A program made the translations under genes and the position numbers. 55,881 nucleotides of DNA from Acidobacteriaceae bacterium (lineage in GTDB: Bacteria > Acidobacteriota > Terriglobia > Bryobacterales > Bryobacteraceae), in assembly GCA_019245255.1 (NCBI GenBank), contig JAFARV010000614.1, positions 1-55,881 on the forward strand, given 5' to 3'. Below are positions 24,478 to 33,260 of this stretch, one piece after another (the first letter of the stretch is position 1; every line of letters begins with the position of its first letter). A model generated the notes under the pieces. That model ran no database searches and was not told where the DNA came from. It worked only from the letters and a program-made list of their open reading frames with translations.

Positions 24478-26115
24478 GTGGGCGAACTGTTTCGGCTAGA
24501 AAAGCCGCGTCAATCTCTTGCCTTCAGCGGAGAAAGGTTCACAACTGAAGCAGGTGGACAAATTGAGACCGAGCATCTCCACCGGTACCTGTTGGCGCGC
24601 GAATTCTGTAGGGGTAAGGATGTGCTCGATGTTGCGTCTGGAGAAGGATACGGTGCAGCTATTTTGGCGAAGGTTGCGCGATCCACCATCGGCGTAGAAA
24701 TCGACCCGCCAGCAGCGACACATGCACATCAGTCGTATTCGCGGTCAAACCTGAGGTTTGTGTGTGGTGATGCCCGCCAGCTTCCATTAGCAGACGCATC
24801 GGTGGATGTTGTGGTCTCATTTGAGACGCTGGAACACTTCGCCGAACATGACGAATTTCTACTGGAGGTGAAACGAGTTCTGCGCCCGAATGGGATTGTT
24901 GTAATATCAACGCCCGATCGAGACGTGTACTCGCCAGTCGGCAGGCCCGCAAACCCATTTCACGTACGCGAACTCACGGCTGAACAATTTAGATCAGCGT
25001 TGGGCCGGGTCTTTGTCGAGCATGCGGTGTATGTTCAGCGGCCGCTTGCCGGATCGGTGATCATGCCGTCGGAGTCTGGTAGATGTGATGGAGCGATTCT
25101 CTCATTTGAGAAGCGCGACCCCGATCACATCGAAGCGGATTCTGGGCTGCCGCGAGCTGTCTACTTAATTGCTTTTGCATCTGCTCAACCTGTTCCGAAC
25201 GTATTCTCAACCAGCCTCTATGTGAGCGATAGCTCTCTTGAACAGCCAGATGCACAACAGCGCCAAGATCACACAACACTTCAAATATTCTCGGGTGGTC
25301 ACGGTGGTTATTCCGAAGAGCTTAGCTTAAGAAAGGCGTTCCGGTTAGGTGTATGGGAAAACCTTTTTTTTGACATTCCAGCGGCGATCAGTGGGCAAAT
25401 CAGAATTGACCCGGCCGATCGTCCTGGGATAGCGGAAGTTTCGCGTATTGCACTGACCACAGACACTGGCGACTTAGTATGGAGCTCTGAAGCTTCCGGT
25501 GCGGTGCAGGAGCTAAAAGCAGCCGGTACGGCCATGATCATACCTCATAGTGATGGTTTGCTGTTGCTGAGCACGGGGCCGGATCCGCAGGTTCTCGTCC
25601 CCCAATTGACGCACAAAGGCGCGCGACTGCATGTGGAGATCTCGTTGCGATTCGATCAAAATCCACATGCGATGAGTGAGGCGGTCAATCAGCACATCAC
25701 CCGACGAATTGAAACACTGGCGCAAAATCATTATCGGGAACTTGAAGCAAAGCAAAAGGAGCTTGTCTACTGCAATGAGAGGATTTCGCAAATCTCAATA
25801 CAACTCCGGGCTTCTGAAAGTGAGCGCATGCTAACACTTGCTGATTACAAGCAGGTTTTGGCGGAACGGAACGACCTTCGGCGCGAGGTGGGCGTAATAG
25901 AGGCGGCACTCGCCGGAACTGGCCAGCAACAGAAAGCTGAGCTCGAGCGTTTGCAACGAGAGCTGAGTGTGCACCAAATTAACTTACATTCCATGGAGGA
26001 TCAGCTTCGCTCGGAACAGCAGATTAATGCCGCGGTCCTTCGCTCTGTATCCTGGAGGGTAACCCGGCCCTGCCGGACTGTGATGGCGTTTGCAAGGAAA
26101 CTGCTTCGGCGATGA
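24478..26115 (+). CDS. Class I SAM methyltransferase with long C-terminal extension and coiled coil
   Basis: DVLDVASGEGYGAAILAKVA..GVEIDPPA..VVVSFETLEHFAEHDEFLLEVKRVLRPNG; Glu/Gln-rich C-terminus; GTG start. Confidence 0.85.
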   Translation: MGELFRLEKPRQSLAFSGERFTTEAGGQIETEHLHRYLLAREFCRGKDVLDVASGEGYGAAILAKVARSTIGVEIDPPAATHAHQSYSRSNLRFVCGDARQLPLADASVDVVVSFETLEHFAEHDEFLLEVKRVLRPNGIVVISTPDRDVYSPVGRPANPFHVRELTAEQFRSALGRVFVEHAVYVQRPLAGSVIMPSESGRCDGAILSFEKRDPDHIEADSGLPRAVYLIAFASAQPVPNVFSTSLYVSDSSLEQPDAQQRQDHTTLQIFSGGHGGYSEELSLRKAFRLGVWENLFFDIPAAISGQIRIDPADRPGIAEVSRIALTTDTGDLVWSSEASGAVQELKAAGTAMIIPHSDGLLLLSTGPDPQVLVPQLTHKGARLHVEISLRFDQNPHAMSEAVNQHITRRIETLAQNHYRELEAKQKELVYCNERISQISIQLRASESERMLTLADYKQVLAERNDLRREVGVIEAALAGTGQQQKAELERLQRELSVHQINLHSMEDQLRSEQQINAAVLRSVSWRVTRPCRTVMAFARKLLRR

Positions 26116-28025
26116 CCTCGATATATGAAGACACTAAACCTGCTGCAGCGCACAATATACCGCGCTTGCTAAGCCGGCCCGTGGTGATCCTCATTCCTGC
26201 CTACGGCGCAGCGGATAGGCTTCGGACTTGTTTGAAGAGCTTGGCTGCGGACGCCCCGCGTAGCTGTAGTTTCTACGTAATTGACGACGGCACTCCAAAC
26301 GACAACATTGCGATGATTTGCGAGGAGACGCAAGCACATCTGCCTGAACTTCGATACATACGAAGCGACGTGAATCGAGGCTTCGTGCGCACATGTAACT
26401 TGGGCATGGAGCATTTTTGCCCGCAAGGGTCGGATCTCCTGCTCCTCAACTCTGATGTCGAAGTAACGCCTGATTTCCTCAACGAAATGCAGGCAGTATT
26501 AGATCTGCATGAAAAGCATGCTGTCGTTACGCCTCGAAGCAACAATGCCACGATATTCTCGATACCGTTTGCGGCTGACCGGTTGCCTCCTGCTGATTCC
26601 TTCGCACTTTGGCGTCGCCTCAAGCCGCACCTGCCGCGGTACTACGTAATGCCAACGGCCGTCGGCTTCTGCATGTTGATCAAGAGCACGGTTCTAGAAC
26701 GCTTTGGTTTATTTGACGACGTATATGGGTTTGGCTACAACGAAGAGAACGATTATGTGTGCCGCATCAACCGTTTCGGGTACTCGGCGGTTTCGGCAAA
26801 TTGGGCTTTTGTATTTCATCATGAAATGTCATCGTTCGGGCAACGGCGCGCCGATTTAGAGCGACGCAACCGCGCCGTGCTACTCACCAGGTACCCTGAA
26901 TATGAGCGCAAGGTGCATGATTACTGCCGTCTGCACGCCGATCCCATTGAAATCTTTGCGCCACTTTATTGCTCTCATCGCCCGCGGATTCTATACGACC
27001 TTTTTCATGTCTCTCCGATCTACAACGGAACAACTGAGTTCGCGCTAAATCTGCTTCGCGAGCTACCCTCTCTGCTCGGCAATGAGTATGAGTTACACGT
27101 GGGAATGAAAGGTGAACCACTCGAGTTCTTCTCGTCTGAGCTGCGAGGCCATTATCTCTATACTGATGATGCTGCTGATGCGACCGGGCGCTTCGATTTG
27201 GTATTCAAGCCCGGCCAAGTGTTCACTCTGGAGGAGTTTCGCCGAATGAATCGCTTGGCCCCTCGTGTGGCATATACCTTACAAGATATTATCGGCGTCA
27301 GGTGCGAGTATCTTAATTCGGCATATCGCCGGGTGTTGTTCAAAAGAGTTGCAGAACTGTCTGATCGCATATTTACCATCAGTGATTCCTCTCGATCGGA
27401 CTTTCGGGCCTTTTACGACTGCTACCTAGATTTGGAAGTAATTTACCATGGGACAACATTTACGGATACAAATCGAACAGGCGAGGGCGATTACATTCTT
27501 TTGGTCGGTAATCATTACTTTCATAAGGGAATAGCCGAGACGCTCCTGTTTCTGAAACATGCAGGACCGATTGTTGTGCTTGGGAGCGAATCGCACGTCG
27601 ATTCGTCCACCGCGAATGTTCGGTGGCTTGTCAGTGGCCAACTCACCAAACGCTATGTACGCAGTCTTTTCGCGAGAGCCAAGGTTATCATCTATCCGAG
27701 TCATTACGAGGGATTTGGATTGCCTGTTATGGATGCATTAGCACTCGGTAAGCCTGTCATTGCATTGGATACCGCGGTCAATCGCGAACTTGCAGCCGTC
27801 ACTCGTAATCCAAACTTGCATCTGGTATCGTCTGTTGCATGCTTAAGCGACATTCTGAAACGGGTGACGCCGATTCCTACGACTATTGGCCCCGTAAGAA
27901 CTTGGTGCGATGCCGCAAGACAGTACGTCAACGCATTTAAAGAACTGCTCGGCCGCGATATCGATGTCGTCAGGCTGCGAGCTCGCTGGGATTTCCTGCG
28001 CAGCCTTGAGGCCCTTCAGAACTAG
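26112..28025 (+). CDS. Bifunctional GT2-GT4 glycosyltransferase fusion
   Basis: N-terminal GT2 VVILIPAYGAADRLRTCLKSL..FYVIDDGT..LLLLNSDVEV; C-terminal GT4 YPSHYEGFGLPVMDALALGKPVIALD. Confidence 0.88.
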   Translation: MTSIYEDTKPAAAHNIPRLLSRPVVILIPAYGAADRLRTCLKSLAADAPRSCSFYVIDDGTPNDNIAMICEETQAHLPELRYIRSDVNRGFVRTCNLGMEHFCPQGSDLLLLNSDVEVTPDFLNEMQAVLDLHEKHAVVTPRSNNATIFSIPFAADRLPPADSFALWRRLKPHLPRYYVMPTAVGFCMLIKSTVLERFGLFDDVYGFGYNEENDYVCRINRFGYSAVSANWAFVFHHEMSSFGQRRADLERRNRAVLLTRYPEYERKVHDYCRLHADPIEIFAPLYCSHRPRILYDLFHVSPIYNGTTEFALNLLRELPSLLGNEYELHVGMKGEPLEFFSSELRGHYLYTDDAADATGRFDLVFKPGQVFTLEEFRRMNRLAPRVAYTLQDIIGVRCEYLNSAYRRVLFKRVAELSDRIFTISDSSRSDFRAFYDCYLDLEVIYHGTTFTDTNRTGEGDYILLVGNHYFHKGIAETLLFLKHAGPIVVLGSESHVDSSTANVRWLVSGQLTKRYVRSLFARAKVIIYPSHYEGFGLPVMDALALGKPVIALDTAVNRELAAVTRNPNLHLVSSVACLSDILKRVTPIPTTIGPVRTWCDAARQYVNAFKELLGRDIDVVRLRARWDFLRSLEALQN

Positions 28026-28035
28026 GAAGCTCGCG

Positions 28036-29937
28036 ATGGGATCGCTTTGGGGAGCGCGTTTTGAGGTGGATACACCAGCACCTGTCCGCCTCAGTCGAAG
28101 CGAATATTACATAGCGGGCTGGTTTACTCCAGCTCAAGACAGCGGCATACACCAGCGTCTCGTTCTGGAAGTGGATGGCGTGAGGCTCCCCGTGAGCCTC
28201 GGCTTGCGCCGGAATGATGTAGCAGAGCATCTCGGTAGTCCGAGCGCCGCAGACTCCGGGTTCATCGCCAGATTTCAAGCACCACGGATAAGCCCTCGAA
28301 TTCGTTTGTTCTTCGAAGACGTGGAGAAAAGACACGCTGTAGCTGAGTTCGTTGTCCCCGTATCGTCGCCACCGCGGCCCAGAACCCACGGCGGCATATC
28401 GGACTATCATCACTGGATTATCAATGTGGAGCCGAATCTGTTTCACCCCAGGGATCACATTCATGCTCATTTGGCCAGGCTTCCGTACCGTCCGTTGATT
28501 TCGATCATTGTTGTCCCCGCAGAGACACTAAACACGTATTTGTTCAATCGCTGTCTCATATCCGTGTTGGAACAGCACTACTCGCATCTGGAGGTTCACG
28601 CCTGCATTCCTTCGTGTGGACACATTCAGCCACAGGACCATCTGGACCAAAGGATACTAACGGATTTGCGGTTTACTATAACGGAGCGCACGTTGTTTGA
28701 TCAGATAGGATCGTGTGTAGCCGACGTACTTAGAGTAGTGCAGGGTGACTATCTTATATGGATGCGCGATGACGATGAATTACATCCGCACGCACTGGTT
28801 GAACTTGTCGATCACCTAAACAGGCGTCCACAAGCGGCGTTTCTCTACTCCGATGAGGATCATATTGACGTTTATGGCAACAGAAGCAAACCGGTTGCGA
28901 AACCCGAGTTTGATAGGGAGATGCTAGTTTCATGCAACTACATCGGATACTTAGCATGCATTCGTCGGGACACATTGGCCGGATGCGGCGACCTGCGTAC
29001 CCTCAGCGAACGGGCAGAGTATTGGGACCTGCTATTGCGTTCCACCGACCAGCACGACGAGAACTCCATCAGCCACGTTCCGAAGGTTCTGTACCACCGG
29101 CGGGTGTACGATACATCGACATCGATCGAATCCCGGAACGCCTCAGATCCTCAAGCAACCAATATAAGACTGATTACAAATTACCTTAAAAACACCAATC
29201 GACCCGGCACCGCCGGGCCGGGGATTGGTCGAAGCACCGTCCGCATACGCTTTCCGTATCCTTCGGACGTGAGGGCCGGCGTGTTTGTTCGAACACAGGA
29301 CGGCCCTTTTCAGATCTCGCTGCTGAGCCAGCAGCCCGAAAGGGAATCAATTCAGTTCTATGAAATCACAGGATGTGCAGTGCGCCCCGTAACAAGCCAG
29401 TGCCTCTCCGGCTTGGAACTGCCGCTTTCGGCGCCCGATAGTCCGCCGGAGGACGTCCTGATTTTTATTAATGAGTCGCTTGAAAGTGTTAATCACTTCT
29501 TTCTCAATGAATTACTCGGTCAAGCGATGCGCCCCGAGTGTGGTCTGGTCACCGGACTGTCGCTCGATTTAACGCGTGCTATTTTACATGCCGGATTTGT
29601 TGCTAGACATGACGGCACAGTTTACGACCCTTTTGCCGGACAGCCTTTTGCCAACCATCTGAACGTCGTGCGCACCGTTGATTCTATTTCTGATTACTTC
29701 TTTGCGGTACGGCGCGAAATATTTCTGGCGGCTGGCGGGCTTGCGTCGATATCAGAATCACACATGAGTCGTCTGGTACGTAGGATCGCAATGGAGACAA
29801 AAACCCGTACCCTCCGCGTTATAGTCACTCCTTATGCGATCGCTACCTTCGAGTGTTCGCCCTCCGATTCAGACGTCGCGAGAGTGAACCCCGATCGGCT
29901 ACAACCAGCAAGCAGCGCACATCAGATCTCCAGTTGA
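28036..29937 (+). CDS. Glycosyltransferase family 2 with N-terminal accessory domain
   Basis: ISIIVVPAETLNTYLFNRCLISVLEQHY..YLIWMRDDDELHPHALVELV..FLYSDEDHID; start moved to ATG 28036 after the preceding stop. Confidence 0.82.
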   Translation: MGSLWGARFEVDTPAPVRLSRSEYYIAGWFTPAQDSGIHQRLVLEVDGVRLPVSLGLRRNDVAEHLGSPSAADSGFIARFQAPRISPRIRLFFEDVEKRHAVAEFVVPVSSPPRPRTHGGISDYHHWIINVEPNLFHPRDHIHAHLARLPYRPLISIIVVPAETLNTYLFNRCLISVLEQHYSHLEVHACIPSCGHIQPQDHLDQRILTDLRFTITERTLFDQIGSCVADVLRVVQGDYLIWMRDDDELHPHALVELVDHLNRRPQAAFLYSDEDHIDVYGNRSKPVAKPEFDREMLVSCNYIGYLACIRRDTLAGCGDLRTLSERAEYWDLLLRSTDQHDENSISHVPKVLYHRRVYDTSTSIESRNASDPQATNIRLITNYLKNTNRPGTAGPGIGRSTVRIRFPYPSDVRAGVFVRTQDGPFQISLLSQQPERESIQFYEITGCAVRPVTSQCLSGLELPLSAPDSPPEDVLIFINESLESVNHFFLNELLGQAMRPECGLVTGLSLDLTRAILHAGFVARHDGTVYDPFAGQPFANHLNVVRTVDSISDYFFAVRREIFLAAGGLASISESHMSRLVRRIAMETKTRTLRVIVTPYAIATFECSPSDSDVARVNPDRLQPASSAHQISS

Positions 29938-29938
29938 G

Positions 29939-31765
29939 ATGCTAAAGACGCCACGCCACCGCGAATTCGTTGACCACGAGCACGCATTAGAGCAGCACGC
30001 GCCTTCTGAAACTCTATTGATTGATCGTATAACCGCGGGTCTCAGCCGGGTAATTCTTGTCGTAGGATGTTGTACCTTTCTTGCTACGGTCTGGATAGTC
30101 GTCCGCACCTACAGCCCGGTTCTATTTTGGGATCACTGGGACATTATTCGTGAGTTATTCCAGAATCATACCCGCATCACTGTTGGCGAATTGTGGGCGC
30201 AACACAATGAACACCGGATCCTTTTGGGACGGCTGCTATTCTATGCGGATTTGTTTTGGTTTGGCGGAACCAACAAGAGTCTCCTCGTGGAGATCATTGC
30301 TGCCCAGCTGTTCCTCCTTGCCGTATTTGTGTGGGCTATTGTCCGCTTTGGGGCCGTCAGTAAACCCACTCTGTGGACCGCAATTGGGCTGCTTACATAT
30401 TGCTGTTTTTCGCCATTACAAATTAATAATTTTGTGTGGCCATTTCAAATCACATTTGTGATGTCCGGAATAGGCCCAATCACGTGCTTTGCAGCAGCGG
30501 TCGAATACTCCCGCACCCCAGCGAGTAACAACAGGCGCCGGACGAGATTAATCCTACTCTGCATCGCATCGGCCCTCTTTGCGGAAGGGACCTTGGCCAG
30601 CGGGTTACTCGTGTGGCCACTGCTTTGCGCCCTTGCACTTATTTTGCGGTTTTTGCGGCGCCATCAGGCGCTAGTCGCTGGAACGGCCATGGTCGGAATA
30701 GCTGCATATTTAATCAAATATCAGGCACCCCTGGGGGTGTCAGATCCTCTGGAAACAATTAAGGAACCTGGCCGTGTTCTGGGGTTCGTGCTTACCGAAT
30801 TGGCATGGAGTTGGGATCAAAGCGTCCCAAACGCCTCCGCCTGGCCCACGTTATCTGAGGAGCTGGCATTTATCGCGATTGCGGCGAGTATCGCGGCCGT
30901 AATGTATTACGTACTCAATCCAAGACGAGAGCCGCTTTACGTATTTCTAGTTGTGTCGATATTGTATGCCATTGCTGCCGTTACACTTACCGCACTCGGC
31001 CGCCTACGATTTGGTCTGTCTCAAGCCACAGAGAGCCGTTATCAGTCTCTCGCATTACTGTTTTGGGCATTGATGGTGGTTCTATGTATCGTTTGGTTCG
31101 ACAAACAGGGAAAAGCGTTGTTGGCTGTCCAAGTTGGCTGTCTGTTGTTGTTCATGGGAGGCGCCTCTCGGTTCGTGCACATGCTCCATTGGGCAGAAGG
31201 ACAACAGGATGGCCTCGGCCGAGCGTGGCGAGCGTTAATTACTAGCTCAGGCGACCCAGCAGCGCGTGTGTTGTACTACGATTTCCCGATGTTGCGCGTC
31301 CTTGCCGCGCATCTGCACGAACATCATTGGGGCCCACAAGAGGGCAAATGGGCGTATAGCGTTCCCACTCTGATCGTAGAGCCCAGCCGCCCCTCAGCTT
31401 CGGTTTCCGGGTTCAGTATTGCTGCGGCGCAGGAATGCAGTGGTTTTATTGACGGAGCAGAACTGACACCAGATCTCCATCACGTAACGGTCCAAGGTTG
31501 GGCATGGGAAAACACAACCGCATCTCTCCCTTCTGTCGTTATACTAGCCTCCGAAAACGGCCAACCGGCCGGATCTGCACAACTCGGCCTCGCTCGGCCA
31601 GATGTGATTGGGGCTGTTCATCGGATTACATCGTCCAATACGGGATGGAGAGTCACAATTGTCATGCCCTCAAAGCGCGGTGTTTATCACGCATTCGCCA
31701 TCGGGCAAGAGCATAAGTCGGCTTGTGAGTTATCTAATGAACTGAACATTGGCTCACTCCCTTGA
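29939..31765 (+). CDS. Polytopic membrane protein with C-terminal soluble accessory domain
   Basis: Multiple hydrophobic segments, LFWDHWDIIRELFQNHTRITVGELWAQHNEHRILLGR; C-terminal VQGWAW...ARPDV domain. Confidence 0.75.
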   Translation: MLKTPRHREFVDHEHALEQHAPSETLLIDRITAGLSRVILVVGCCTFLATVWIVVRTYSPVLFWDHWDIIRELFQNHTRITVGELWAQHNEHRILLGRLLFYADLFWFGGTNKSLLVEIIAAQLFLLAVFVWAIVRFGAVSKPTLWTAIGLLTYCCFSPLQINNFVWPFQITFVMSGIGPITCFAAAVEYSRTPASNNRRRTRLILLCIASALFAEGTLASGLLVWPLLCALALILRFLRRHQALVAGTAMVGIAAYLIKYQAPLGVSDPLETIKEPGRVLGFVLTELAWSWDQSVPNASAWPTLSEELAFIAIAASIAAVMYYVLNPRREPLYVFLVVSILYAIAAVTLTALGRLRFGLSQATESRYQSLALLFWALMVVLCIVWFDKQGKALLAVQVGCLLLFMGGASRFVHMLHWAEGQQDGLGRAWRALITSSGDPAARVLYYDFPMLRVLAAHLHEHHWGPQEGKWAYSVPTLIVEPSRPSASVSGFSIAAAQECSGFIDGAELTPDLHHVTVQGWAWENTTASLPSVVILASENGQPAGSAQLGLARPDVIGAVHRITSSNTGWRVTIVMPSKRGVYHAFAIGQEHKSACELSNELNIGSLP

Positions 31766-31835
31766 TCGCAACGCATTTCAATGGCCTGTACAGGATTGCG
31801 CATGAGGACTACCGAAAAGCCGCCGCTGTTTACCA

Positions 31836-33260
31836 ATGACGACGACACTTAATCTTCTTGAACGGACAGGTCAGCTGATACATCATGGCGACGGGCGTTG
31901 CCGTCTGACTCCGAACCTCTGCGTCTGCGCAAGCGCAACAGGCTATTTCGATAAGCTAGACACCTCATCCAACCCGTGGGTGGCTACCGGCTGGGCCATC
32001 GACTTTGAGACACGCCAGTCTTGCGCTGATGTACTCGCCATACAGAATGGATGGGTACTTGATCATTCATCCTTCATTGCGTGCTCGCGGCCAGATGTCA
32101 ACGCCGCTTTTCGACTACCCTTAACCTTAAGATCCGGAATAACAGTGTCCCTCGCCGCTGATCCAAACTGCGGGCGCGTGTCTCTCTTGGGAGTCTTCGA
32201 CTCAGGGTCGGTCGCACTCCTCGCAGGACCGGGCGAGTGCGCACCTGCAAATCCGTGGACCCACAAAAGTGTCACCATCCCACTTGATGTGTGGCAACAG
32301 AAATTTCGTAAGACCCTGCATGCATTTCCTGACAGTTCACCATTTTGTAGTCTTTATTCACTCGATCCTGCTTACGACCCAAGAAGCTATTCAGGAGTTA
32401 CAACGCAGTTCCTAGAACAGTCCGATGTCTATCATGCCAAGTTCACAGACCATCGGCGCTGGACATATCTGCTCTCGCAAGCGCTATTTAGGTTGCAACT
32501 CGATGAATCCCGTGATATTTCTGTTCTCGATGTTGGCTCTGGTTCAGGCAACTCAGTTTATCCTATGCTTACGCTGTTGCCGACGGCAAGTATCGTAGCG
32601 ACTGACATCAGTCCACAACTGCTCGCTCTTTTACATAAACAGTTAAGTGTCACCGACCGTCAGCGGGTTTTAGCGGTGGCGATGGACGCCTCCCAACCGT
32701 TCCTTGCGCGGGAGTCCTTTGATCTTGTCGTTGGCGCGGCCATTCTCCATCACATAATGGATCCAAGTACGACGCTAGCGGCCTGTTGCGACGCTTTGAA
32801 GCCAACTGGTCACGCGATCTTTTTTGAGCCATTTGAAACGGGCTATGTTTTGCTTCGCTTCCTATATGAACAGCTTGTGAACAATTCAGATCGGTTCCGG
32901 CTTCCAGACACCGTCCGCCAAGTGCTTCAGGCGATCATTGTCGACATAACCGTCCGAACTGGCAGCGATAAAACCGCGGACCTCTATAAATCTTTAGATG
33001 ACAAATGGCAATTTACTAGAGCCTATTTTGAGCGCCAGCGCTCTCAATGCGGGTTTTCATCCCTGATGATATATCCATTGGATTCCCCTGTTGGCCAGTT
33101 CAGCGCGCAACTCAGGACTCACTTGCGCCTGTGCTTGAACGCTGGCCCCGAAAGTGTATCCGACTTGGTTTGGGAATTCGTCCGGGAATTCGAAGGACAT
33201 TTTTCGCCGGCTTCCGCTCCAGAACGGGCATTGGAGGCGTGTGTCATTTTTAGTAGATAG
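31836..33260 (+). CDS. SAM-dependent methyltransferase with N-terminal accessory domain
   Basis: ISVLDVGSGSGNSVYPMLTLLPTASIVATDISPQLLALL..FDLVVGAAILHHIMDPSTTLAACCDALKPTGHAIFFEPFE. Confidence 0.85.
   Translation: MTTTLNLLERTGQLIHHGDGRCRLTPNLCVCASATGYFDKLDTSSNPWVATGWAIDFETRQSCADVLAIQNGWVLDHSSFIACSRPDVNAAFRLPLTLRSGITVSLAADPNCGRVSLLGVFDSGSVALLAGPGECAPANPWTHKSVTIPLDVWQQKFRKTLHAFPDSSPFCSLYSLDPAYDPRSYSGVTTQFLEQSDVYHAKFTDHRRWTYLLSQALFRLQLDESRDISVLDVGSGSGNSVYPMLTLLPTASIVATDISPQLLALLHKQLSVTDRQRVLAVAMDASQPFLARESFDLVVGAAILHHIMDPSTTLAACCDALKPTGHAIFFEPFETGYVLLRFLYEQLVNNSDRFRLPDTVRQVLQAIIVDITVRTGSDKTADLYKSLDDKWQFTRAYFERQRSQCGFSSLMIYPLDSPVGQFSAQLRTHLRLCLNAGPESVSDLVWEFVREFEGHFSPASAPERALEACVIFSR

Follow-up and report, generated by a model that had tools for sequence, protein, structure and literature searches.

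A predicted Ig-like accessory module recurs on three neighboring proteins of a surface-polysaccharide gene cluster in an Acidobacteriaceae bacterium

The locus and its three module-bearing genes

The window, i.e., the whole stretch of 55,881 nucleotides analyzed here, is contig C582 of a 5.0-Mb assembly that is 79% complete. The locus is a surface-polysaccharide gene cluster comprising genes for epimerases (a name read off the sequences), GT2 and GT4 glycosyltransferases, and methyltransferases. Two further proteins encoded downstream, both also named from their sequences, are a chain-length protein of Wzc-like type and one resembling EpsI. Three consecutive genes of this cluster carry the module described here.

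28036..29937, + strand: GT2-family glycosyltransferase (GT), 634 codons including the stop, with an N-terminal module and a catalytic domain (Pfam Glycos_transf_2, E 3.6e-4; NCBIfam WcaA-like, E 2.9e-7)
28054..28371, + strand: module copy 1 at the GT N-terminus, a predicted Ig-like sandwich, with G28, W29, R59, D61, V62, G75, and F76 invariant in 8 orthologues
29939..31765, + strand: polytopic membrane protein (MP), 608 aa, with a GT-C-like layout according to hydropathy and D-x-W-D and HNEHR motifs in the first large loop; no Pfam match
31433..31750, + strand: module copy 2 at the MP C-terminus, on the predicted periplasmic side, with Cys flanks conserved in 3 homologues
31836..33260, + strand: class-I SAM methyltransferase (MT), 474 aa, with an N-terminal module and a catalytic domain at residues ~226-331 (Methyltransf_12/11/25, E 7e-15 to 2e-13)
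31935..32231, + strand: module copy 3 at the MT N-terminus, the most divergent copy, assigned by iterated profile, AlphaFold2, and profile-profile comparison

Scans with Pfam and NCBIfam recognized the catalytic domains of GT and MT only, and MP was without any match. On reading of the sequences, no export signal was evident in GT or MT, while the C-terminus of MP is predicted to lie outside the membrane according to hydropathy and the positive-inside rule, with helices counted by eye. Cysteines occur at both ends of the MP module in all three homologues compared. The GT orthologues of the genus retain the module at their N-terminus; in 7 genomes they can be aligned from around residue 6 onward. 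Homologous matches to MP were found in 16 of 60 genomes, its own included; a search for related loci with MP as the query returned no relative.

Homology of the three copies and predicted fold

The preliminary description of this DNA held that similar segments of 60 to 80 residues recur in GT, MP, and MT. The quoted segments are in frame as claimed (GT residues 24-83, MP residues 516-577, and MT residues 49-107), but this size was too short, the module spanning ~100 residues. GT reads R-N-D-V, and MT, the weakest of the copies, is without the aromatic residue of the second G-[FW]. Mutual identity of the three window copies is 15 to 19%.

When the source genome was searched with MP, matches other than MP itself were confined to its C-terminal region (residues about 471-576) and fell on proteins of contigs C915, C447, C210, and C793. 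Three of these proteins are secreted-type arrays with six or seven copies each of the repeat 'VYIDxP...GWAxD...V.V.VDG..G.A..G..RPDVC..YP...CPNVGW...DTT.L.NG.HTL.VTA', which holds two cysteines per copy; the single C210 copy has three and the window GT copy has none. A hidden Markov model built from 19 secreted repeats, taken from other contigs of the same genome and without any window sequence, ranked MP first (22.0 bits), GT second (7.7 bits), and MT third (6.1 bits) among the 444 open reading frames (ORFs) of the window. The GT (E 0.08) and MT (E 0.26) matches to this model are marginal, and in the control one of 2000 shuffled versions of the MT segment scored 13 bits. Profiles built from the window proteins and their relatives gave clearer results: that of nine GT N-termini found the secreted arrays at up to E 1e-26 and also matched, unprompted, two FkbM and two class-I methyltransferases encoded in the GT loci of relatives G002 and G009, and an MP-only profile found the arrays at up to E 5e-20. 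An iterated profile from which MT was withheld scored it at 16.5 bits, with E 1.4e-4 when all window ORFs were searched, the next ORF scoring 4.5 bits; the best of 5000 shuffles reached 10.5 bits, so that 0/5000 were as good as MT.

Profile-profile alignment had been named in the preliminary description as a check on the similarity. We compared disjoint groups against column-shuffled nulls, a comparison of overlapping alignments having been discarded as circular. Most links exceeded the maximum of their null: GT versus array (49.0 versus 16.1), array versus MP (43.2 versus 13.9), GT versus MP (30.5 versus 13.0), GT versus the methyltransferase relatives (48.6 versus 16.8), and the window MT versus the methyltransferase modules of relatives (29.5 versus 15.3). 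The direct MP-MT comparison and that of larger GTs with MT did not rise above their nulls, and MT is therefore a member through intermediates. Judged by profile similarity beyond shuffled controls, the GT, MP, and MT modules form a common family. Independent profiles, shuffles, and disjoint profile-profile tests thus bear out the similarity first noticed by eye, and the identity of the three copies as one module, taken alone, appears to us nearly certain.

The fold was compared for the GT and MT copies, which AlphaFold2 predicted with pLDDT values of 88.6 and 79.3, respectively. Both models are confident and strand-rich and follow the same order, i.e., strands, two short helices starting from or just after R-x-D-V, and three further strands; since other copies contributed homologous rows to the alignment behind the MT model, this model leans towards agreement with that of GT. 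Foldseek neighbors were generic Ig-like and carbohydrate-binding-module (CBM)-like sandwiches, with best E values of 0.019 and 0.024 and TM by query ≤0.49, the nearest folds being mostly Ig domains (E 0.019 or worse). Because only such generic sandwiches were retrieved, "Ig-like" is a fair description rather than proof of membership. According to these models, the module would be an Ig-like beta-sandwich of ~100 residues with a two-helix insert beginning at R-[PNx]-D-V. The proposal of a small beta-sandwich common to three otherwise unrelated pathway proteins is in line with both the sequence profiles and the predicted fold of the GT and MT copies.

Relatives, carriers, and history of the module

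Scans of the window copies against Pfam, NCBIfam, and PHROGs gave nothing useful, and the three modules did not match Big_7 (PF17957; gathering score 24.1 bits) even at E ≤10. Related secreted arrays, however, match PF17957 at E 3e-20 and 4e-18 (73 and 66 bits), and two GT-borne relatives do so below threshold (E 0.02-0.05). The module differs from Big_7 in having an insert with RPDV and G-[FW]; the insert of the secreted copies contains a cysteine pair, whereas the window GT and MT copies are without cysteine at those positions. Ig-like or beta-sandwich CBMs, e.g., the neopullulanase N-domain and CBM56, are weak Foldseek neighbors of the GT module (TM by query 0.37-0.49), but no match was significant (none at E ≤0.001) and no sequence motif is in common. 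The earlier statement that no established family could be named is right for the window copies, which appear to have no entry in Pfam or NCBIfam, but the module does have kin in the Ig-like Big_7 repeats and in the C-terminal domain of a phage amidase.

This amidase, EfAmi1, was the sole match when PDB sequences were searched with the module profile (residues 218-289, E 3.5e-4), and in the literature only the EfAmi1 paper was relevant to a named domain for the module. EfAmi1 is an N-acetylmuramoyl-L-alanine amidase from an Enterococcus faecium prophage (PDB 8C4D), whose C-terminal domain is unclassified in InterPro and absent from the 8C4D crystal; its authors found the predicted model of this domain to be CBM-like and proposed carbohydrate binding on computational grounds (PMC10167349). 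The domain shares the GW...RPDV...GF pattern of the module with Enterococcus and Listeria phage lysins, and lysin domains exceeded the null in profile-profile comparison with the GT, MP, array, and methyltransferase modules (41.6 versus a null maximum of 13.6 for the GT group). The difference is that EfAmi1-type domains are attached to peptidoglycan hydrolases. A relative was found in 57 phage records, of which 52 are Enterococcus phages. In the other direction, a lysin-only profile matched one secreted array at E 1.8e-8 and no window ORF at E ≤1. Searches in both directions thus support homology of the module and the EfAmi1-type C-terminal domain at the level of sequence. In a putative muramidase of Enterococcus phage EF1 (L137:349-1575), the first module is followed by another stretch with GW, which suggests tandem use in lysins.

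Distribution was surveyed within the genus, family, and order with family profile A2 at E ≤1e-6. Matches occurred in 16 of 17 genomes of the genus (own included), in 1/5 of the rest of the family, and in 1/14 of the rest of the order; the Acidobacteriota sample yielded 22 genomes with matches besides the window's own, and 11 of 199 genomes had matches in the phylum of Xanthomonas. Carrier functions in these two phylum samples were named by reading the sequences alone. The carriers read among Acidobacteriota comprise secreted arrays, membrane proteins of GT-C-like, sulfatase-like, and other types, and a radical SAM protein (L109). In the phylum of Xanthomonas, they include a GT39-like transferase (L170), a methyltransferase (L172), a GT4 protein with two copies (L178), and an HNEHR-motif membrane protein with a C-terminal module as in the window MP (L177). 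A protein family of the same phylum (L171, L173, L176, L181, and L182) has the module inserted mid-protein, after a conserved 'ASFDxxxPPSKNIR'-like stretch.

Module-bearing genes also lie side by side in some relatives: three adjacent genes (MT, GT, and FkbM) carry the module in G002, GT and the next gene, MT, do so in G009, and MP and GT do so in G001. In half of the orthologous GT loci (G010, G015, G004, and G016), the stretch examined contained no second module-bearing gene, but these stretches were short (8 kb for G016). The module is missing from MP homologues of 460-480 aa and is thus dispensable for the membrane function. In G016, a homologue of the window MP without the module (L021 / L071:7699-9078) has one in-frame stop reported by the search.

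On the tree, modules group by protein type across genomes, with nine GT orthologues (98/96) and nine larger GTs (98/95) forming groups, and the MT copy adjoins the MP copies (87/95). The tree rejects a common clade for the three window copies (p-AU 0.0023), although long branches limit trust in both the topology and this rejection. The picture of a domain passed among three neighbors is accordingly not borne out, and recent local duplication of the module is ruled out by the same long-branched tree. With a single clade rejected, the clustering in orthologous loci of G001, G002, and G009 appears better explained by repeated recruitment of the module than by one local duplication.

Glycan recognition and competing readings

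We consider that the module is probably a glycan-handling attachment, which recurs across bacterial phyla on surface-glycan enzymes, secreted repeat proteins, and phage lysins. More specifically, it would be a noncatalytic Ig-like accessory module of ~100 residues, carried by surface-glycan enzymes and arrayed in secreted proteins, that most likely recognizes glycan; we put this reading at a probability of about 0.5. Each copy would engage a glycan in its presumed compartment, namely, a lipid-linked oligosaccharide or the growing polymer inside the cell and a surface or cell-wall glycan outside. Such engagement might raise the local substrate concentration, and the modules could keep successive enzymes, including the three of the window, on one polymer. 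Glycan is the obvious common ligand, we infer, for carriers in all compartments. The residues of G-W, R-x-D-V, and G-[FW] are invariant and identical whatever the carrier; since every one of them may serve the fold, they do not single out a ligand site. The radical SAM carrier L109, whose substrate is unassigned, counts against a role in glycan recognition, as does the fact that Ig-like modules are often inert spacers. We hold only tentatively the broader proposition of a general bacterial glycan-recognition element, acquired separately by cytoplasmic transferases and methyltransferases, by periplasmic transferases of lipid-linked sugars, by secreted repeat proteins, and by phage cell-wall hydrolases, through which pathway enzymes on both sides of the membrane would read the same polymer.

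That GW and RPDV are merely short motifs shared by chance or convergence on unrelated folds is highly improbable: despite single-sequence identities of 15-20% and the direct MP-MT profile comparison that did not exceed its null, the independent profiles, the shuffle controls, the profile-profile tests on disjoint groups, and the agreement of the predicted folds all argue against it. Chance similarity is thus rejected and, for GT and MP, refuted, the direct MP-MT comparison being the exception. A structural spacer or stability domain, i.e., an Ig-like fold that lengthens or stabilizes the enzyme without a ligand, is rather unlikely. Secreted tandem arrays, which are typical of Ig repeats that act as spacers, do belong to the family, the conserved residues have a structural appearance, and the GT and MT copies are joined to a catalytic domain; however, a spacer would not account readily for the repeated occurrence on glycan enzymes and on phage lysins across several phyla, nor for invariant residues that the GT copy keeps across orthologues 31-36% identical to the window GT.

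The preliminary description also raised docking. As considered here, this reading has the modules binding one another or a shared scaffold and thereby keeping GT, MT, and MP together in one complex. The repeated clustering of module-bearing single-copy genes in one locus with differing partners (the window, G001, G002, and G009) speaks for it. Yet hydropathy places the MP copy across the membrane from GT and MT, which would preclude direct docking to them, the three weakly similar copies do not form one clade, and the orthologous GT loci with a single module-bearing gene, short as these stretches are, also weigh against it; we therefore regard docking as unlikely, behind even the spacer. Glycan recognition is favored over docking to one shared protein partner because the module occurs on proteins that are cytoplasmic, probably periplasmic, or secreted, as well as on phage lysins. 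If these predicted locations are right, no single protein partner could serve all copies, while glycan is present on both sides. Glycan recognition is accordingly ranked first, an inert spacer second, and docking third.

The similarity rightly perceived at first reading is real and extends to a family across bacteria, for which the role in glycan binding is proposed. Unannotated stretches in many surface-polysaccharide enzymes and in enterococcal phage lysins can now be given a name-able domain with diagnostic residues. If the module does bind glycan, it would offer a sequence handle on how polysaccharide enzymes stay on one polymer and would connect the domain at the C-terminus of EfAmi1-type lysins with a wide family that has assayable ligands.

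Other features were observed in the cluster. The gene at positions 26112-28025 of the window encodes a GT2-GT4 fusion protein; 'IPAYGAA' proteins resembling it are encoded near the module-bearing GT in G001, G002, G009, G015, and G004, which suggests that the cluster has a conserved core. In the protein encoded at 24478-26115, a methyltransferase domain is followed (residues ~233-410) by another recurring accessory domain, 'G-x-IRIDPADxPxxxxI'. Neighboring genes of orthologous loci have this domain as well, as a single copy or as two (L059:6167-8584, L060:13210-15126, L062:6390-8393, and L042:3502-4257). One protein of G002 has both this domain and the GW..RPDV module.
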